This document shows positions 9,521-58,198 of a stretch of DNA of 64,000 nucleotides, piece after piece. Every line of letters begins with the position of its first letter. Within the stretch, counting starts at the first letter, position 1. The notes under the pieces were generated by a model. It was given only the letters and a program-made list of their open reading frames with translations, searched no databases and was not told the DNA's origin. The stretch spans positions 1 to 64,000 of the forward strand of contig NZ_JABFVK010000054.1 of the NCBI RefSeq assembly GCF_013362815.1, in the 5' to 3' direction. The translations under genes were made by a program, and so were the position numbers. Origin of the DNA: Hamadaea sp. GTDB taxonomy: Bacteria; Actinomycetota; Actinomycetes; Mycobacteriales; Micromonosporaceae.

Positions 9521-9534
9521 CCCCCTTTTGGGAG

Positions 9535-9597
9535 CGCTGGATCAGGGTTCTGGGTCGAATCTTGGTGTGTGATTCGACCCAGAACCCTGATCCAGCG
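9535..9597. repeat. Family A inverted repeat, copy 2 (perfect)
   Basis: Perfect 27-base arms at 9535-9561 and 9571-9597 with a 9-base loop. The outer end reads CGCTGGATCAGGGTTC and the inner end GGGTCGAATC. No U-run follows. It separates ppx from the MFS gene, both on the plus strand. Confidence 0.9.
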
Positions 9598-18226: not shown

Positions 18227-18247
18227 CCAGTTCGCTTTCGCCCTTGG

Positions 18248-18312
18248 GCGCTGGATCAGGGTTCCGGGTCGAATCATGCAGCAAGATTCGACCGCGAACC
18301 CTGATCCAGCGC
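18248..18312. repeat. Family A inverted repeat, copy 3
   Basis: 28-base arms at 18248-18275 and 18285-18312 with two mismatches and a 9-base loop. Here it lies between convergent genes. Confidence 0.88.
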
Positions 18313-40925: not shown

Positions 40926-41816
40926 GTGAGTGAGCAGCTTCGCCTGATGGCCGTGCACGCCCATCCCGACGACGAGTCGAGCAAGGGCGCGGCCACTATG
41001 GCCCGTTACGTCCGCGAGGGCGTCGACGTGCTGGTGGTGACGTGCACCGGTGGCGAGCGCGGCGACATCCTCAATCCGAAACTGGCCGGCGATCCGGAGA
41101 TCCTGGCCAACATGACGCAGATCCGGCGGGCCGAGATGGACCGGGCCCGCGAGATCCTCGGCGTACGCCAGGAGTGGCTGGGCTTCGTCGACTCCGGCTG
41201 GCTGGAGGACTACCGGCCCGAGCACGCCGACAAGCTGCCCGACGGGTGCTTCGGCCGCGAGGATGTGGCGACCGCCGCCCAGCCGTTGATCAAGCTGATG
41301 CGAGAGTTCCGCCCGCATGTCGTGATCACGTACGACGAGGAGGGTGGCTACCCGCACCCGGATCACATCCAGTGCCACCGGGTGAGCGTCGCCGCTTTCG
41401 ACGCGGCCGGTGACGCCCAGGTCCACCCCGAGCTCGGGGAGGCCTGGCAGCCGCTGAAGCTCTATTACCACGTCAGCTTCACCCGTTCGCAGTTCACCGC
41501 GTTGCACGAGGCCTGCCTGGCGGCCGGCATCGACAGCCCGTACGCCGAGCTGCTGGCCGACTGGCCGGCCGACCGGGACAAGGGCGACCGGGTCACGACG
41601 CGGGTGGAGTGCGGCGATTACTTCCCGATCCGGGACGACGCGCTGCGGGCGCACGCCACCCAGATCGATCCCGACGGCGGCTGGTTCCGCGCGCCGCTGT
41701 CGATTCGTCAGCAGGGCTGGCCGACCGAGGACTACCAGCTCGCTAAGTCGTTGGTGGACAGTCCGACGCCGGAGAGCGACCTGTTCGCCGGCATCCGGAA
41801 GGAGGGGCTGGTCTGA
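40926..41816 (+). CDS. mca: Mycothiol S-conjugate amidase
   Basis: Zinc enzyme that cleaves mycothiol S-conjugates to mercapturic acids for export, a detoxification step. The 296-residue protein has the LmbE/PIG-L motifs VHAHPDDESSKGA (zinc ligands His13 and Asp16) and YPHPDHIQCHR (third ligand His). CTGGERGD and WLGFVDSGW are typical of Mca rather than MshB. The GTG start has a GGGGGAG site. It shares one base with the following small gene. It implies the cell makes mycothiol. Confidence 0.95.
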   Translation: MSEQLRLMAVHAHPDDESSKGAATMARYVREGVDVLVVTCTGGERGDILNPKLAGDPEILANMTQIRRAEMDRAREILGVRQEWLGFVDSGWLEDYRPEHADKLPDGCFGREDVATAAQPLIKLMREFRPHVVITYDEEGGYPHPDHIQCHRVSVAAFDAAGDAQVHPELGEAWQPLKLYYHVSFTRSQFTALHEACLAAGIDSPYAELLADWPADRDKGDRVTTRVECGDYFPIRDDALRAHATQIDPDGGWFRAPLSIRQQGWPTEDYQLAKSLVDSPTPESDLFAGIRKEGLV

Positions 41817-42085: not shown

Positions 42086-42201
42086 TCCATGCGGTTTTTG
42101 GCTGCGGAGACTGTCGCCCGCCTCGATAACGTCGTAGCCTTCCCAGCGGGATTCGCGTCAGTGTGCCAGTCAGCCGGGAACCCACGAAGAGGGGGTGCGG
42201 T

Positions 42202-44748
42202 GTGCTGATGAACAGCGTGGTTCACCGCATCACCGAGGGGCTGCGGTCCGGTCTGGACCGATCGCGGGTGGCACTGCGGCGGGCATACCTCGCCAGTGGC
42301 GCGGCTGAACTTCCCCGGCGCGCCCGGACCTTCGTCGCGTTCGCCGTCGGTGCGGCCCTCGTCATCTCGATCGGCGGCGTCCTCTTCTCCCCAGTCGACG
42401 ACTGGCCGCGGTTCGGGATCGTCGTCGGCCTCGTCGTGGCCAGCCACCTCGGCCGCCTCCGCGTCCGGATCTCCGGGTCCAACTTCGCCACCGCCTGGGG
42501 CGACGCCGCCTTCATCGTGGCGGTCTGGATCGGACCGGACGGCTGGCTGCCCGCCGCCATGGGGCTCGGCGTGCTGCTGGCCAACTTGTTGCTGCAGGCC
42601 TTCGCCGACGAGTGGAAGCCGTTCGTCGAAACCATCCGCCGCTCGGCCAGCCTCACCATCGCCGCCGGGCCTGCGGCCCTCGTCGCCCACCTGCTTCTGC
42701 AAGGCGACGGGTACGACCAGATGGTGACGCCGGACGACGGCTTCGCCCTCGCCGCGACGGCCCTCGGCTACTCACTGCTGACTGTCGTCATCACCTGTGT
42801 CTACACCGCACTGCGCGACGGGCACGCCTTCGGGACGTTGATGCGGCGGGCACTGAGCAGCATCTGGATGATGACCCTCGGCAACCTCGCGGTGGGCCTG
42901 GGCATCGTCGGTCTGCTCGGGGTGGACCTGCGCTGGCTGATCGCCCTGCCGCCGGTGCTCTGGGCGTTCCAGCAGGCGTACACCCATCGGCTGCTCGACT
43001 CGCAGGAACGGCAGGGCTGGAACCGGTACGCCGATGCCATCCGGGCGTTGCGCCGCCACGGTGACATCTCGGGGATCGCCAACGCCGGCGCGCGCAGTGC
43101 ACTGAGTCTCTTCCGGGCCAACGAAGTCGTCGTCGAACTGCTCAACGCGGACGGCCCCACGATGCGATACACCGCAGGCGGTGGTCCATTGCGCCGCAAC
43201 TCCGGGGTGATCGCCTCCGTGACCCGGCCGTTGGAGGTCGCGGGCGAACCAGTCGGCACGTTGACCCTGCACTTCGCCGGCACCGTCGGGCTCCGCAGCC
43301 GGGACCGTGCGGCCCTTGCGGCGTACGCCGACGCGCTCGGAGTGGCGCTGCACGACGCGGCGACGCACGCCGCGTTGCGGCACGCCACCGAACGAGCGGT
43401 CGACGAGGCGGTCCGAGATCCGCTCACCAAACTCTTCAACCGGGAGGCGTTGCTCCGCCGCGGCGACGAGACGCTGCGCGGGCTCGACCGGTCGGCCGTG
43501 GTCGCCCTCCTGATGCTGGACGTCGACAACTTCAAGGACGTCAACAACACCCTCGGACACGTCGCGGGCGACCAGTTGCTGCAGATCGCGGCCGGCCGGC
43601 TCGGCGATGTCGTCTCCGATGTGGAGCTGCTGGCCCGGCTGGGCGGCGACGAGTTCGGGCTGCTGCTGTTCGACCTCCCCGAAGACGGCACAGAGCAGGC
43701 CATGCGCCAGGCCGAACGGCAGGCGCTGCGCCGCGCCCGCCGGCTGGCTGCCGCGCTCGCGGAGCCGACCGAGATCGCCGGCGTCACCGTCTCGGCCGAG
43801 ACGTCGGTCGGCGTCGTCGTGGCAGCGGCGGGCCGGGTCGACATGCCGGAACTGCTGCGCCGCGCGGATGTCGCGCTCTACCAGGCCAAGGACGGCCAGT
43901 CCTCGGTCGTCGCGTACGACCCGTCCCATGACGGGGCGAGCACGGATCGGCTGGCGCTCGTCGCCGAGATGCGTACCGCGCTCAGTCTGGACGATCAGCT
44001 GCTCGTGGCGCTGCAACCGGCGATCGACCTGTCGACCGGGGCGGCCACCGGGGTCGAGGCGCTCGCCCGGTGGGAGCATCCGCGCCGCGGTCGCCTGCAT
44101 CCCAAGGACTTCGTCCGGGCGGTCGAGGCCAGCGAACTGCTCGCCCCGTTCACTCGGTACATTGTGGACAAGGCGTTGACGGCGGCGGCGTTGTGGCGGG
44201 CCGAGGGCATCGACGTTCCGGTCTCGGTCAACCTGTCGGCTCGCAACCTGCTCGACGCCGAACTGCCGGCCGACATCGGCGTACTGCTGCACAAGCACCG
44301 TATTCCGGCCGCGCGACTCGTCCTCGAGATCACCGAGACGGTCGTCATGAGCGATCTCCGAGTGATCGACGAGGTGCTCAGCGATCTGCGGGAGATGGGC
44401 GTACAGCTGTCCGTGGACGACTTCGGCACCGGCTATTCGTCGCTGACGTTCCTCACCCGCATCGCCGTCGACGAGGTCAAGGTGGACCGCAGCTTCGTCC
44501 GGGCGATGGGCGACTCACCCCAGGCCGCGGCGATCGTGCGTACCACCGTCGATCTGGGCCGGCAGCTCGGCCTGCGCGTCGTCGCCGAAGGCGTCGAGAC
44601 GCACGAGCAGCGCCGAGTCCTCGCCGAGCTGGGGTGCACGGCCGCGCAAGGCTTCCACTTCTTCCGGCCCATGCCCAGCGAGGAGATCACCGCCGCGCTG
44701 CGCAGCCTGCCCGATCCGCCGACCGGCGCTATCGCCCACGTGGGCTAG
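42202..44748 (+). CDS. Membrane GGDEF-EAL protein
   Basis: An 848-residue cyclic-di-GMP turnover protein. About eight helices at the N-terminus (residues about 35-280), a linker or degenerate GAF-like part (about 290-400), GGDEF (ARLGGDEFGLLLF) and EAL (GVEALARWEHP, VNLSARN, LEITETV, SVDDFGTGYSSL, VKVDRSF, VAEGVET, AAQGFHFF). Both catalytic motifs look intact, so it may make or degrade c-di-GMP. The RxxD inhibitory site before GGDEF is absent. The GTG at 42202 with GAGGGGG six bases upstream was chosen; ATG 42208 is possible. It overlaps the convergent gene by 20 bases. Confidence 0.9.
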   Translation: MLMNSVVHRITEGLRSGLDRSRVALRRAYLASGAAELPRRARTFVAFAVGAALVISIGGVLFSPVDDWPRFGIVVGLVVASHLGRLRVRISGSNFATAWGDAAFIVAVWIGPDGWLPAAMGLGVLLANLLLQAFADEWKPFVETIRRSASLTIAAGPAALVAHLLLQGDGYDQMVTPDDGFALAATALGYSLLTVVITCVYTALRDGHAFGTLMRRALSSIWMMTLGNLAVGLGIVGLLGVDLRWLIALPPVLWAFQQAYTHRLLDSQERQGWNRYADAIRALRRHGDISGIANAGARSALSLFRANEVVVELLNADGPTMRYTAGGGPLRRNSGVIASVTRPLEVAGEPVGTLTLHFAGTVGLRSRDRAALAAYADALGVALHDAATHAALRHATERAVDEAVRDPLTKLFNREALLRRGDETLRGLDRSAVVALLMLDVDNFKDVNNTLGHVAGDQLLQIAAGRLGDVVSDVELLARLGGDEFGLLLFDLPEDGTEQAMRQAERQALRRARRLAAALAEPTEIAGVTVSAETSVGVVVAAAGRVDMPELLRRADVALYQAKDGQSSVVAYDPSHDGASTDRLALVAEMRTALSLDDQLLVALQPAIDLSTGAATGVEALARWEHPRRGRLHPKDFVRAVEASELLAPFTRYIVDKALTAAALWRAEGIDVPVSVNLSARNLLDAELPADIGVLLHKHRIPAARLVLEITETVVMSDLRVIDEVLSDLREMGVQLSVDDFGTGYSSLTFLTRIAVDEVKVDRSFVRAMGDSPQAAAIVRTTVDLGRQLGLRVVAEGVETHEQRRVLAELGCTAAQGFHFFRPMPSEEITAALRSLPDPPTGAIAHVG

Positions 44749-52859: not shown

Positions 52860-52970
52860 GGACGGTTGCCACCCCCGACCAGGTCAACTCCCAGAATTGC
52901 CAGGCTGCGTTCCTGAGACTGCCAGGCGGGGGTGAGGAGACCTGAGCCGAGTCTGTGGGAGAGTCTGAGA

Positions 52971-54974
52971 GTGAATCGGCTCGGCAGCTCGACCTCGCCC
53001 TACCTCCGTCAGCACGCGGCCAATCCGGTGGACTGGTGGCCTTGGTCTGATGCGGCGCTCGCCGAGGCCCGCGAGCGTGACGTTCCGGTGCTCATCTCGG
53101 TCGGGTACGCGGCCTGCCACTGGTGTCATGTGATGGCGCACGAGTCGTTCGAGGACCCGGTGATCGGGGCGAAGATCAACGCGAACTTCGTGGCGATCAA
53201 GGTGGACCGCGAGGAGCACCCGGACGTGGACGCCGTGTACATGGCTGCCACGCAGGCGATGACGGGACAGGGTGGCTGGCCGATGACGGTCTTCGCCACT
53301 CCCGACGGCGAGCCTTTCCTGTGCGGGACGTACTTCCCGCGGGCGAACTTCGACCGGCTGCTCGACGCGGTGGGCGAGGCTTGGCGGGATCAGCGCGAGG
53401 CGGTGCTGCGGCAGGGTGCGGCGGTGGTCGAGGCGATCACTCCGACGGCTTTGAAGGGCGCTCAGCCGATCACTTCGGAGCTGCTCGGGCAGGCCGCGCA
53501 ACGGCTGGTCGCCGCGCACGACGTGACCTATGGCGGCTTCGGGGAGGGCGGCCCGAAGTTCCCGCCGCACCTGGCGATGATCTTCCTCTTGCGGCACTTC
53601 CAGCGTACGAAGGATCAAGAAGTGCTGGAGGTCGTGCAGCACACCGCCGAGGCGATGGCTCGGGGTGGCCTCTACGACCAGGTCGGCGGCGGGTTCCATC
53701 GGTACGCAGTGGACGGCCACTGGGTGGTGCCGCACTTCGAGAAGATGCTGTACGACAACGCGCTGCTGCTGCGGGCGTACGCCGATCTGTGGCGGCTGAC
53801 CGGGGACGAGCTGGCCGGACGGGTCGCCCGGGAGACGTATGAGTGCCTCGTCCGGGACTTCGCCACGCCGGAGGGCGGATTCCGGTCGGCGTACGACGCG
53901 GACACCGAAGGTGTCGAGGGCCTGACCTATGTGTGGACTCCGGCGCAGCTCGTCGAGGTGCTCGGCGAAGAGGACGGCCGGTTCGCCGCCGACGTCTTCG
54001 GGGTGACCGCTGCGGGCAACTTCGAGCACGGTACGACCGTTCTCACGCTGGCTCGCGACATCGACGCGGCCGACCCTGAGGTGCGGGATCGGTGGCTGCG
54101 GGTCAAGGCCAAGCTGTTCGCGGCGCGTCGGGATCGGCCGCAGCCTGCGATCGACGGCAAGGTCGTGGCAGCTTGGAACGCGCTGACGATCACGGCGTTG
54201 GGGGAGTACGCCCGGGTGGCCGAGGCGATGGGCGAAGATCCCGGCGAGGCGGCGGAACAGGCTGAACGTGCGGCGACGTTGCTGGCCGAACTGCACCTCG
54301 TGGACGGCAAGCTGCGAAGGGTGTCGCTCGACGGTGTCGTAGGCGAGCCGGTCGGCGTACTCGAAGACTATGGCTGCGTGGCCGAGGCGTTCAGTCTCGT
54401 TCATCAGCTCACCGGCGAGGCGGTCTGGCTCGACCGGGCCGGTGCGTTGATCGACACCGCGTTGACGAAGTTCGTTCAGGACGGCCGGGTGTTCGACACG
54501 GCGTCCGACTCGCAGCGCCTGGTCACCCGACCGGCGGACCCCACTGACAACGCCACGCCGAGTGGGGCGTCCGCGCTGGCCGGCGCGCTGTCGGTGTACC
54601 ACGCGCTGACCGGCGAGCCGGCTTTCCGGGAGCGGGCCGAAGACATCCTCGGTCAGGTGGCCGACGTCATCGCCCGGCATCCCCGGTTCGCCGGCTACTC
54701 GGCAGCGGCGGCGGAAGCCCTGCTCAGCGGCCCGGTCGAGATCGCGATCGCCACGCCCGATCGGGATCAGGCCGCCGATCTCGTCCACACCGCGGTCAAG
54801 AACGCGCCCGGGGGAGCGGTGCTCGTCGTCGGCGAACCCGACCGGCCCGGGGTTCCGTTGCTGGCCGGGCGTCCCCTGATCGAGGGCCGGCCAGCGGCCT
54901 ACGTGTGCCGGGGTTTCGTGTGCGATCGCCCGGTCACCGACGCTGTCGGTTTGTCGACAGTGCTCACCGCATAG
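52971..54974 (+). CDS. YyaL-type thioredoxin-domain protein
   Basis: A 667-residue protein of the DUF255/YyaL (spermatogenesis-associated 20) family. N-terminal thioredoxin-like domain with the redox pair VGYAACHWCHVMAHESF (Cys44, Cys47) and GQGGWPMTVFATPDGEPF, then an (alpha/alpha)6 barrel with HPHFEKMLYDNA-like VPHFEKMLYDNALLLRAYADLW. Its reaction is unknown; an epimerase-like fold is predicted. Homologue of Rv1084, after mca and Rv1083. GTG 52971 was taken because it gives the family start NRLGSSTSPYL. Confidence 0.92.
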   Translation: MNRLGSSTSPYLRQHAANPVDWWPWSDAALAEARERDVPVLISVGYAACHWCHVMAHESFEDPVIGAKINANFVAIKVDREEHPDVDAVYMAATQAMTGQGGWPMTVFATPDGEPFLCGTYFPRANFDRLLDAVGEAWRDQREAVLRQGAAVVEAITPTALKGAQPITSELLGQAAQRLVAAHDVTYGGFGEGGPKFPPHLAMIFLLRHFQRTKDQEVLEVVQHTAEAMARGGLYDQVGGGFHRYAVDGHWVVPHFEKMLYDNALLLRAYADLWRLTGDELAGRVARETYECLVRDFATPEGGFRSAYDADTEGVEGLTYVWTPAQLVEVLGEEDGRFAADVFGVTAAGNFEHGTTVLTLARDIDAADPEVRDRWLRVKAKLFAARRDRPQPAIDGKVVAAWNALTITALGEYARVAEAMGEDPGEAAEQAERAATLLAELHLVDGKLRRVSLDGVVGEPVGVLEDYGCVAEAFSLVHQLTGEAVWLDRAGALIDTALTKFVQDGRVFDTASDSQRLVTRPADPTDNATPSGASALAGALSVYHALTGEPAFRERAEDILGQVADVIARHPRFAGYSAAAAEALLSGPVEIAIATPDRDQAADLVHTAVKNAPGGAVLVVGEPDRPGVPLLAGRPLIEGRPAAYVCRGFVCDRPVTDAVGLSTVLTA

Positions 54975-54982
54975 GGGTCACT

Positions 54983-55010
54983 TATCCAGCTATGTCGGAA
55001 TAGCCGGATA
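54983..55010. promoter_or_regulatory. Imperfect dyad before the AsnB-like gene
   Basis: TATCCAGCTAT (54983-54993) and ATAGCCGGATA (55000-55010), one mismatch, six-base centre. It overlaps the -10 region. Confidence 0.4.
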
Positions 55011-55020
55011 GCATCGGCGC
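55009..55020 (+). promoter_or_regulatory. Leaderless -10 of the AsnB-like gene
   Basis: TAGCAT at 55009-55014, six bases to ATG. Confidence 0.6.
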
Positions 55021-56907
55021 ATGGCCGGCCTAGCCGCACTGATCTCCCGCCCACCGAGCGCGGCCGACGCAGTCGCCGACGCGCTCGCCGCTCGCGGCTC
55101 CGACGTCGCCCGTCATCGCGCCGGCTCGGCGACCCTGATCGTCCGGGCCGCCCTGCCCATCGTCCATGAACTGGACGGATGCGTGGCGGTCGTCGACGGC
55201 GTCGCCGAACTCAGCACGCTGCTTTCGGCGTATCGCCAGAAAGGTCCGAGCGGGCTGCTCGGCGGTCCGGACGCCTACGCGCTGATCTTGCGCGACACGA
55301 AGCGCCACGGCCTCGTGCTGGCCCGGAACGGTGACGGACCGCCGCTTTACTACGCGCAGAGCGTGACTGGCATGCTCGTGGCCTCGGAGCCCGAGGCCTT
55401 GCTCGCGGCCGGCGTGCCCGCGGACCCGGACCCGCAGGTGGTGGCCGCGTTTCTCGAGACCGGCGCGTGCGACGCGAGCGATCGGACCTTCTACGCGGCC
55501 ATCCGCCGCGTGCTGCCGGGTCAAGCCCTCGCGCTGGACATCGAGGTCACCGACCACACGCCCGCGGCGATGCGTCGACAGCGGTCAATCTCCGCGCGGA
55601 TGGCGCTGCGGTGGGCGGTCGTTCCGGGTCGCTTAGGGGTACGCCTGACGCCGGGACCGGTTTCGGCGGCCATTTACGGGGCGATTGCGGCCTCGGGAGC
55701 CGCCGTGGTGAGTGAGATTCCGACGGCGCTCGACCTCACGGAATACCTGGCCGATGTCGGCGAACCGTTGCCTGACCTGGAGAGTTACCTGATCTGGGCG
55801 ACCGCGCGGACGGTCGCGGGCGAGATCGACACGCTGCTCGACGCGGCACCGCCCGGGACTCACCTCGCCCGGCTGGCCGACCGGGTGAGCAGCCGATACG
55901 GCGTCGAGCTGCGGTTTCCGCAGTGCGACGCAGCGGCCGGCGCCGACTGGGCGGAACTCGCCGCGCCGACCCCGCCCGTCCGGCCGCTGCCGTCGACGGC
56001 GGACGTGCTGCGACGGATCGGGCCCGAGCTGGCGGCCTCTGTGTTGCACAGCTTGCCGAGTCCGGCGGCGGTTTCGCAGCTCGGGGCGCTGCTGGCCGGA
56101 GATCCATCAGCGGCGGAGGCCTTGTTCCGGCGGCACGTGCTGGCGTACTGGCTGGCTCGGCATGCTCCGGCGACCCAGGCCGCGCCGCCGCCGGACGACG
56201 TCGTGGCGGGCGGCCGGACTTGGCGGCGTACGCCGGTCGAAACCGACCTCCTTCAACCCGGTGATCCGCTGCCCGAGAAGCTCGCCTGGTATGTCGCCGA
56301 AGCCGCCGCCGGCAGCACCGAACCCTGGTACGTCCTGGTGTCGGCGAAGGCGGTCGCGGTCACCCAGAGCCGGGTGCGGCCGGTCTGGGAGATCACGCCC
56401 GGATTCGCCGCCCGCTGCGTGTCGGCGCTGACCGGCGAGCCGCCGTGGGTCGCGCAGTCCGTGATCGCGTACGGGTCGGGCAGCCGCGCGATCATGGCCG
56501 GGATCTGCGGTCGACTTCGCCTGCGCGGTTTGGCCGACCGCTTCGTCACGCCTGCCATGCGGGCGGTGCGGCCGCCCCGGGATGCGGCAGTCGGCGTCGC
56601 CCGGATCGGTGTCGCGGGCCCGCCCCGAGGTGGCGACGCGGTGGCCCAGGAGGTGCTCGACACCCTCGCCAAAGTCCTCACCGACACCGAGTACGCCCAG
56701 CTCGCCGGGTGCGCCGTCGTCGGGCCGACCGGACTGTGGGGGTGGGCCGGACCGGGCTCGCCCTCGCCGTCCTCTGAGCTTGTCGGCGCGCTCGGCTCCG
56801 GCGATCCCTTCGGGGATCGGCGTACGCCGGTCGTGCTCGCTCTCGCTCAGCCCTTGCGGGCTGCGCGTACGCCCGCTCGCAAGGCTTCGCGGCGCTCTCG
56901 CCGCTGA
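55021..56907 (+). CDS. Degenerate asparagine-synthetase-like protein with extra C-terminal domain
   Basis: A 628-residue protein. Residues 1-175 follow the class II glutaminase half of asparagine synthetase B (LARNGDGPPLYYAQ, LVASEPEALLAAG, RTFYAAIRRVLPGQALALD). However, the catalytic Cys2 is Ala (MAGLAAL instead of MCGI...). The following synthetase half has LTPGPVSAA (209-217) where the ATP loop SGGxDS should be. The part from about 400 on (LPEKLAWYVAEAAAGSTEPWYVLVSAKAVAVTQSR...GCAVVGPTGLWGWAGPG) is not from AsnB; a weak likeness to CofE-type F420 ligase is possible. The reaction is unknown; it may bind rather than catalyse. ATG after a leaderless -10. Confidence 0.75.
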   Translation: MAGLAALISRPPSAADAVADALAARGSDVARHRAGSATLIVRAALPIVHELDGCVAVVDGVAELSTLLSAYRQKGPSGLLGGPDAYALILRDTKRHGLVLARNGDGPPLYYAQSVTGMLVASEPEALLAAGVPADPDPQVVAAFLETGACDASDRTFYAAIRRVLPGQALALDIEVTDHTPAAMRRQRSISARMALRWAVVPGRLGVRLTPGPVSAAIYGAIAASGAAVVSEIPTALDLTEYLADVGEPLPDLESYLIWATARTVAGEIDTLLDAAPPGTHLARLADRVSSRYGVELRFPQCDAAAGADWAELAAPTPPVRPLPSTADVLRRIGPELAASVLHSLPSPAAVSQLGALLAGDPSAAEALFRRHVLAYWLARHAPATQAAPPPDDVVAGGRTWRRTPVETDLLQPGDPLPEKLAWYVAEAAAGSTEPWYVLVSAKAVAVTQSRVRPVWEITPGFAARCVSALTGEPPWVAQSVIAYGSGSRAIMAGICGRLRLRGLADRFVTPAMRAVRPPRDAAVGVARIGVAGPPRGGDAVAQEVLDTLAKVLTDTEYAQLAGCAVVGPTGLWGWAGPGSPSPSSELVGALGSGDPFGDRRTPVVLALAQPLRAARTPARKASRRSRR

Positions 56908-56929
56908 CTCTTTTCGCGCTGTCGTTTGG

Positions 56930-56994
56930 GCGCTGGATCAGGGTTCGCGGTCGAATCTCGCACCAAGATTCGACCCGGAACCCTGATCTGGCGC
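56930..56994. repeat. Family A inverted repeat, copy 4
   Basis: Arms at 56930-56957 and 56967-56994 with a 9-base loop. The outer right end is GATCTGGCGC instead of GATCCAGCGC. Between two genes on the same strand. Confidence 0.88.
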
Positions 56995-57026
56995 CAGCCG
57001 GAGCGAGCGCCGTTCGGGCAGGTCGG

Positions 57027-57040
57027 TAGGCTTGCCCCCG
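57027..57040 (+). promoter_or_regulatory. Leaderless -10 of purK
   Basis: TAGGCT at 57027-57032, eight bases to ATG 57041. Confidence 0.55.
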
Positions 57041-58198
57041 ATGGACACCCGGACTGGACTGCCGGTGGTCGGCATGATCGGCGGCGGACAGCTCGCCCGC
57101 ATGACCCACCAGTCGGCGATCGCCCTCGGCCAGTCGTTGCGCGTACTGGCCACCTCACCCGACGACGGAGCCGCGCTCGTGGCGGCCGACGTGCAGATCG
57201 GCTCACACCTCGACCTCGCGGCGCTGCGGGACTTCGCCAAGGGCTGTGACGTGGTCACGTTCGACCACGAGCACGTCCCGGGCGAGCACATCCGCGCCCT
57301 CGCCGACGACGGGGTGGCCGTCTACCCCTCGGCTGACGCGTTGCAGTACGCCCAGAACAAGCGCCTGATGCGGGAACGGCTGACCGAGCTCGGCGCGCCG
57401 ATGCCCCGCTGGCGCCCGGTACGCCGCATCGACGACGTCCGAGAGTTCGGCGACGAGGTCGGCTGGCCGATCATCGGCAAGGCCGCCACCGGCGGTTACG
57501 ACGGCAAGGGCGTCTGGGTTCTGCGTACCTGGGAAGCGGCGGTCGAACTGCTGGAGCAGGGCGTCGATCTCATCGTCGAGGAGAAGGTCGCCCTGGACCG
57601 GGAACTCGCCGTCCAGGTCGCCCGATCGCCGTTCGGGCAGGTGGCGGCGTACCCGGTGGTCGAGACCGTGCAGCAGGACGGGATCTGCGTCGAGGTCCTC
57701 GCACCCGCGCCGAACCTCAGCGCCGAGCAGGCCGCCGAGATCCAGCAACTCGGCATCCGGATCGCGACCGAGCTGGACGTGGTCGGCGTACTGGCCGTCG
57801 AGCTGTTCGTCGACGCCGACGGCCGGTTCAGCGTCAACGAGCTGGCGATGCGTCCGCACAACTCCGGGCACTGGACTATCGAAGGTGCCCGCACCAGTCA
57901 GTTCGAGCAGCATCTGCGGGCCGTCCTCGACTACCCGATGGGCGACACCTCACCGGCCGCGCCGGTGGTCGTGATGGCGAACGTGCTCGGTGGCCCCGAC
58001 GGCGGTATGCCGATCGACGAGCGTCTGCATCACCTGTTCGCCGCCGAGCCCGGAGTCAAGGTGCACCTCTACGGCAAGCAGGTTCGGCCGGGCCGCAAGA
58101 TCGGACACGTGACCGCGCTCGGCGACGATCTCGCGCAGACTCGCGCCCGTGCGGCGCGGGCGGCCCATTGGCTGACCTACGGGGAGGAACCGCAGTGA
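57041..58198 (+). CDS. purK: N5-carboxyaminoimidazole ribonucleotide synthase
   Basis: ATP-grasp enzyme that makes N5-CAIR from AIR, bicarbonate and ATP in purine synthesis. The 385-residue protein has [50 protein letters not shown] (ATP loop), [20 protein letters not shown], and [33 protein letters not shown] 57041 was chosen over TTG 57032 because the -10 overlaps the latter. The stop overlaps purE. Confidence 0.96.

Follow-up and report, generated by a model that had tools for sequence, protein, structure and literature searches.

The 64,000-nucleotide stretch of Hamadaea sp. DNA analysed here (the window, from an assembly of 7.45 Mb in 124 contigs) carries between yyaL and purK a gene whose product resembles asparagine synthetase (AsnB) and lacks its active-site motifs, which raises the question of what this protein is, from what it descends and what it may be kept for. 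The gene, like all of its parts and both neighbours described below, lies on the forward strand; it extends from an ATG at 55021 to a stop codon at 56907 (55021..56907) and encodes a product of 628 amino acids. The strings GDGPPLYYA, ASEPEALLAAG and RRVLPGQALALD, which the initial annotation had read as fold markers of AsnB, were all located in this translation. Its N-terminus is MAGLAA, so that residue 2, the position of the glutaminase nucleophile Cys2, is Ala, and residues 210-215 read TPGPVS in place of the ATP-loop motif SGGxDS. The motif calls made earlier are thus correct.

Library searches with the single protein gave weak AsnB similarity, confined to part of residues 61-175. The model TIGR01536 matched residues 85-173 with E 7.7e-9 and 35.1 bits against a cut-off of 267.1, a GATase_7 match (0.0014) was likewise under its cut-off, and F420_ligase (PF01996) reached E 0.088 and 12.7-15.0 bits against a gathering cut-off of 25; comparison with PDB chains by phmmer yielded no match. 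Similarity of the C-terminal part to CinA (0.019-0.093, under the cut-off) occurred in one of 35 aligned family members and was judged to be chance, as were weak matches to ClpA and GrpE near E 1.

A close homologue with 85% identity was found in locus L001. Among 300 sampled genomes of the bacterial family, strong matches (E 4.1e-33 or better) were obtained from 37, distributed over 15 of 44 genera and separated by a gap from the next best match (E 1.1e-11); at most four candidates were scored per genome, so absences are not proven. The weaker matches that were fetched turned out to be ordinary AsnB proteins or fusions of AsnB with a CofE-like domain. Among 396 genomes of the phylum, with two candidates scored per genome and absence accordingly not proven, no full-length member was detected outside the window genome. 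We refer to the family of the window protein as class B. Its alignment (A1) comprises 35 of the 37 members from 14 genera; the other two, L047 and L031, are truncated at contig ends. L001 and L003 appear to be one and the same locus, which the alignment represents by L003. L026 was kept in the motif counts and, together with L020, dropped from the segment identities. Residues 1-170 and 236-300 are the best conserved segments, and mean pairwise identity is 59% for residues 1-170 and 46% for the CofE-like half. Asn_synthase is still matched by three of the 35 members (best 1.1e-6) and PF01996, at E 0.1 or better, by six (best 0.0053). Judged from these comparisons, class B is a conserved derived subfamily which Pfam and NCBIfam models score only under their cut-offs, and it is in this form that the proposal of a new protein family stands.

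The origin of class B became apparent from a second group of proteins, class A, which combine an intact AsnB with a fused CofE-like domain at the C-terminus. Seven of these (L032-L038, alignment A2, 926-977 amino acids in the aligned rows) carry the motifs MCG, NGE, SGGLDSS, GQGADE, IDGPT and DAND, and the protein of L032 exceeds the cut-offs of both Asn_synthase (7e-65) and F420_ligase (3.4e-6). Comparison of A1 and A2 by hhalign (100%, E 2.7e-62) aligned 701 columns, colinear from residue 1 into the CofE-like end. By descent, class B thus falls into the AsnB superfamily, both its glutaminase and its synthetase domain being alignable with class A over these columns, and the AsnB-like fold suggested initially, weak in the library searches, is clear with the family profile. 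The AsnB part is present as annotated and reaches further than had been stated, with the motif R..DR..R.GV at residues 284-300. For the C-terminal part a profile (A7) was built from 14 CofE-like domains, three of class A, one paired with a separate AsnB and ten solo, all of which match PF01996. With this profile, three crystal structures of CofE (7uld, 2phn and 2g9i) were matched at about 2e-6, chiefly through the first third of the profile, and the C-terminal part of A1 aligns with it at E 1.5e-37. Taken together, the two matches identify the extra residues, about 220 in number, as a CofE-like domain; by profile comparison the C-terminal part of class B is a degenerate F420-0:gamma-glutamyl ligase (CofE-like) domain. 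The initial annotation was right that this part is not AsnB. Its view that a dead AsnB had newly gained the domain does not hold, as the sister group already has this domain joined to an intact AsnB.

In a tree of 62 CofE domains, class B (35 rows, support 100/98) and class A (8 rows, 99/96) each occupy one side of a branch, and the two together are separated with 100/99 from 19 others (14 solo, four other fused and one paired). A tree of the AsnB part (34 rows, including 17 of the 35 class-B rows) agrees with the grouping of both classes, at only 83/74. Further actinobacterial families also have fusions of AsnB and CofE, at L116, L117 and L119 and, with the end of such a fusion, at L131; L118 encodes AsnB and the CofE-like protein as two directly adjacent genes (L118:6717-9458), the unfused form of the pair. 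The pairing is hence not peculiar to the family of the window genome. The descent of class B from a two-enzyme fusion of AsnB and a CofE-like domain is well supported by these sequence comparisons.

We know of no assigned product for the intact bifunctional enzyme, which may form a small amide or gamma-glutamyl compound. Class-A genes of L032, L033 and L035 lie near genes of an osmoprotectant-type ABC transporter and those of L034, L036 and L037 near a cysteine-synthase-like gene, all named by sequence reading; six of the seven loci have such surroundings, and no yyaL was called beside a class-A gene. One genome, G074, contains an AsnB half (L048:1-1860) with Ser for Cys2, DGE for NGE, SGRLPES for SGGLDSS and GGDE for GADE, and on another contig a CofE-like half (L040:6146-7006) in which IDGPT and DAND are kept; from the contig ends we infer that these are pieces of one split gene. 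Both pieces group with class A in the CofE-domain and AsnB-part trees, which suggests that their AsnB chemistry disappeared independently, and the G074 fusion apparently represents an independent intermediate toward a dead fusion, AsnB-dead and CofE-intact by its motifs. In genome G054 the class-B gene is accompanied elsewhere by a class-A gene (L185) with the motifs and one in-frame TAG, which indicates that both classes can coexist in one genome.

Residue counts in the 35 class-B members were compared with the seven intact fusions, class-A numbering being used for D381, D812, E816, D863, D866 and T899. The glutaminase-like half (residues 1-170, 55021..55530) carries Ala at position 2 in 31 members, Thr in two and Ser and Pro in one each, as opposed to Cys in all seven class-A proteins, and the two members cut by contig ends lack Cys2 as well. 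Of the motif NGE, the oxyanion Asn is replaced by Asp (Asp59 in the window protein) in 34 members and by Ala in one, and the Glu is lost in all. In the shrunken synthetase half (residues 171-395, 55531..56205) the PP (ATP) loop, SGGLDSS in the intact fusions, reads TPGPVSA (55648-55668); SGGxDS was found in none of the 35 aligned homologues, and the Asp of the loop is kept in one. Asp and Glu of GADE, which the window protein lacks by deletion, have been deleted or replaced in every one of the 35, the Asp just before (D381) being kept in 20; the motif R..DR..R.GV..R.P is retained. In the CofE-like domain (residues 396-612, 56206..56856) the positions of D812 (IDGPT) and D863 (first of DAND) are Asp in none of the members. 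We take the Asp residues of IDGPT and DAND in class A to be the metal-binding Asp of CofE, and a DAND/DTN match between the A7 profile and the CofE structures was seen. Eight of the 35 members still have D866 (the second Asp of DAND), 22 have Glu816 and 29 have Thr899, and to this extent the CofE-like part is less thoroughly changed. What class B otherwise retains is largely structural, namely R..DR (each residue in 34 members), Gln449 (34 of 35) and Lys/Arg443 (33 of 35). The loss of Cys2 and of SGGxDS, noted initially for the window protein alone, thus extends across the family, and homologues with both motifs intact, which would have marked the window copy as simply decaying, do not occur among the 35. 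As far as residues can tell, class B has lost key residues of three sites, those of the glutaminase, the synthetase and the ligase.

The position of the gene between yyaL and purK was verified. The upstream neighbour (52932..54974) encodes a Thioredox_DsbH/DUF255 protein with the motif CHWC (PF03190, 5.1e-67); the downstream gene (57032..58198) is purK by reading of its sequence and of its homologues. The gene-neighbour survey proposed initially revealed that all 29 class-B loci examined have yyaL directly upstream in the same orientation, at a distance of 35-154 bp in 25 loci, 271 bp in one and 620-742 bp in L055, L045 and L046. The gene sits within a conserved block of core genes. Downstream, the order is variable, with purK/purE or other genes. 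In L066-L069 the outer flanks differ and yyaL and class B stay joined. A yyaL gene also occurs without class B, in 26 of 28 genomes selected for the absence of the latter; at 11 of 20 such loci that were fetched, the called gene that follows yyaL is purK, one other conserved gene lies between them in three, another called gene lies between yyaL and purK/purE in four, and no purK was called in two. As the order yyaL-purK is also kept without class B, the gene appears optional in a mostly fixed slot, and its adjacency to yyaL is partly inherited order. Elsewhere in the window genome one Asn_synthase protein over the cut-off and one F420_ligase protein are encoded, and those activities need not rest on the class-B gene. 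Further upstream of yyaL the window contains an LmbE-like gene (40926-41816), by family reading a mycothiol conjugate amidase Mca, and a GGDEF/EAL gene (42163-44748). Both families recur in other class-B loci, and a thiol-metabolism neighbourhood is possible.

The initial annotation had also assigned a leaderless promoter to the gene. A -10-like box of the leaderless type, TAGCAT (55009..55014), precedes the ATG by 6 nt, both in the window and in three other genomes of the genus, thus in all four examined; across class B a box TANNNT 5-9 nt 5' of the start was seen in 12 of the 32 genes inspected (of 37). With such boxes cotranscription with yyaL is not required, and the class-B gene seems, from its start region, to have a promoter of its own. 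Directly 3' of the gene lies a palindrome (56929-56995) with 30-nt arms, 87% complementary, and a 7-nt loop. It belongs to a dispersed REP-like repeat with further copies in the window at 9534-9597 and 18247-18312 and at least 80 strand matches in the genome, corresponding to at least about 40 places (40 of 249 first-look candidates scored); a family search of the window genome for a Y1 (RAYT-type) transposase found no match.

The reading we favour, with our confidence about evenly divided, is that class B would be a Micromonosporaceae pseudoenzyme that serves, without catalysis, as a binding or regulatory partner, possibly of YyaL. By sequence, the features by which a pseudoenzyme is recognised, namely homology to enzymes, loss of catalytic motif residues and retention under selection, were all found. 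Class B has in addition acquired constraints that class A lacks: Leu22, Pro46, Pro124, Phe144, Gly148, Cys150 and Val531 are invariant in 35 of 35 members, and Asp59 is a new near-invariant residue (34 of 35). Such newly gained constraint speaks for a new role in addition to the loss of function. No Cys other than Cys150 (codon 55468..55470) is invariant in the aligned family; it is followed by an equally invariant Asp151, and where Cys150 stands all seven class-A proteins have His. These residues could also belong to a new active site, in which Cys150 would be the nucleophile or the redox residue or in which the CofE-like domain would act through the well-kept Lys/Arg443 and Gln449, and a re-purposed enzyme of this kind is possible, if doubtful. 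No new conserved set of acidic residues and no nucleotide loop was seen in the class-B alignment, however, and the 33 invariant residues, 23 of them Gly, Pro, Leu or aromatic and six charged, fit a fold with a conserved surface better than a chemistry.

The last part of the protein (56857..56904) forms a basic tail with a net charge of +8 in the last 25 residues. A net charge of +5 or more in this segment was found in 27 of 33 class-B proteins (L020 and L029 (cut) being dropped), many of them near relatives, so that the independent number is smaller, compared with 6.5% of 430 other called locus proteins as background and none of the seven class-A proteins. The tail, together with the CofE-like domain, might make class B a stand-alone binding protein for nucleic acid or the membrane or a ligand sensor, adjacent to yyaL by inherited order, which would also accord with an own promoter and with the frequent occurrence of yyaL without class B. 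We consider this unlikely: the tail is weak or missing in six of the 33 (L024, L027, L028, L042, L043 and L044), the glutaminase-like half is better conserved than the CofE-like half that would do the binding, and the link to yyaL survives where the flanks are rearranged.

For the whole class-B gene dN/dS (NG86) ranged from 0.117 to 0.259 in 11 pairs, which share members and lineages and are not independent, with a highest segment value of 0.40 (L015/L019, middle part); for comparison, yyaL gave 0.122-0.142 (three pairs) and purK 0.126 (one pair). That class B is kept under selection is, on these estimates of constraint, well supported. When presence and absence of class B are mapped onto a tree of 47 YyaL proteins (27 from genomes with the gene, 20 from genomes lacking it), six changes are required, at least three of them forced by the starred branches. 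Given the one fixed slot, class B is best understood as an old gene that was lost repeatedly, the count of changes being unable to tell gain from loss. These changes, the restriction of strong matches to 37 of the 300 sampled genomes and the state of L026, whose initiator column holds Ile and whose synthetase half is incomplete, would suit a decaying pseudogene or the slow loss of a dispensable gene. Such decay is very unlikely, however, in the face of a dN/dS of 0.12-0.26, of the absence of internal stops in the matches listed, and of the same losses and the new invariant residues throughout the 14 genera of the alignment; the pseudogene reading is disfavoured by dN/dS and conservation, and the initial view that the gene is no pseudogene is supported by low dN/dS and by the consistent loss of Cys2 and SGGxDS in 35 homologues. 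That class B retains the activity of AsnB or CofE behind atypical motifs has a practically negligible probability. Homology to both is clear and some positions in the CofE half are partly kept, but all 35 members have substitutions or deletions at the glutaminase nucleophile, in the PP loop, at the acidic residues of GADE and at two Asp positions of CofE, and the scores lie far under the cut-offs (35 of 267 bits for TIGR01536, 12.7 of 25 bits for PF01996).

For the favoured pseudoenzyme the following course of events may be proposed. The ancestral fusion would have combined a glutamine-dependent amide synthetase of the AsnB type with a CofE-like gamma-glutamyl ligase, as it appears intact in the sister group; within Micromonosporaceae one copy would have lost key residues of glutaminase, synthetase and ligase, its synthetase half would have shrunk, and the copy would have been kept in the slot at yyaL. 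The protein would now work without the old chemistry as a binding or regulatory partner. Its position in the yyaL slot makes YyaL the first candidate and probably the most likely partner, and a new invariant Cys encoded beside a CxxC protein suggests thiol chemistry. The glutaminase-like half with Cys150, Pro46, Pro124, Gly148 and Asp59 may accordingly offer a surface for interaction or a thiol switch, and the basic tail could provide a second contact, to nucleic acid, the membrane or an acidic protein. The partnership with YyaL and the redox role of Cys150 are in this sense what we infer from gene order and conservation. Points that speak against this reading are the Asn_synthase matches of three members, the partly kept CofE positions, the weak or missing tail of six members and the low support for the two classes in the AsnB-part tree and, for the link to YyaL, the synteny of yyaL without class B and the apparent promoter of the gene itself. 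In its most specific form, which we regard as rather improbable, the triply dead fusion would be a dedicated thiol-switch partner of YyaL, in which Cys150 forms a mixed disulfide with CHWC and the formerly catalytic domains act as a scaffold and as a sensor mediated by ligand or tail.

Several known systems resemble class B in parts. The AsnB-CofE fusions (class A, L116, L117 and L119, with L118 as the unfused form) share the domain order and are colinear over the whole length; class A differs by its intact motifs and its greater length and is the sister group in the CofE tree. AsnB itself (TIGR01536, PF00733; 1ct9) and the hydroxyamidotransferase 7ylz, which the A1 profile matches at 2.5e-7, have homologous glutaminase-like and synthetase parts, whereas class B is without Cys2, SGGxDS and GADE and its synthetase half is shortened. 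Beta-lactam synthetase (1jgt) and the lasso-peptide cyclases are relatives of AsnB, some with a non-functional glutaminase half, which keep the ATP site and are active. Class B has the dead glutaminase half in common with them but has lost the ATP loop too; 1jgt appeared only as a match of class A, and the lasso cyclase model NF033535 matched the window protein at 3.7e-5, far under its cut-off. To CofE (PF01996; 7uld, 2phn, 2g9i) the C-terminal domain is homologous by profile; it differs in lacking the key Asp residues, in its fusion to a dead AsnB part and in scoring under the PF01996 cut-off. A limited literature search retrieved no paper on an asparagine synthetase in connection with F420, gamma-glutamyl ligase or CofE, or as a pseudoenzyme.

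Pseudoenzymes are usually discussed as single dead domains. A whole two-enzyme fusion in which the key residues of three sites are lost and which is nevertheless kept under selection would be unusual for a conserved pseudoenzyme, and together with the intact sisters and the AsnB-dead, CofE-intact form it offers a series in which to ask what stays useful in such proteins after the chemistry is gone. In the thioredoxin-like YyaL family the role of the Leptospirillum member is called unclear in one study (PMC7084401). If class B is indeed a dedicated partner of YyaL, it would make this question testable and give access to what the widespread YyaL/SPATA20-type proteins do.
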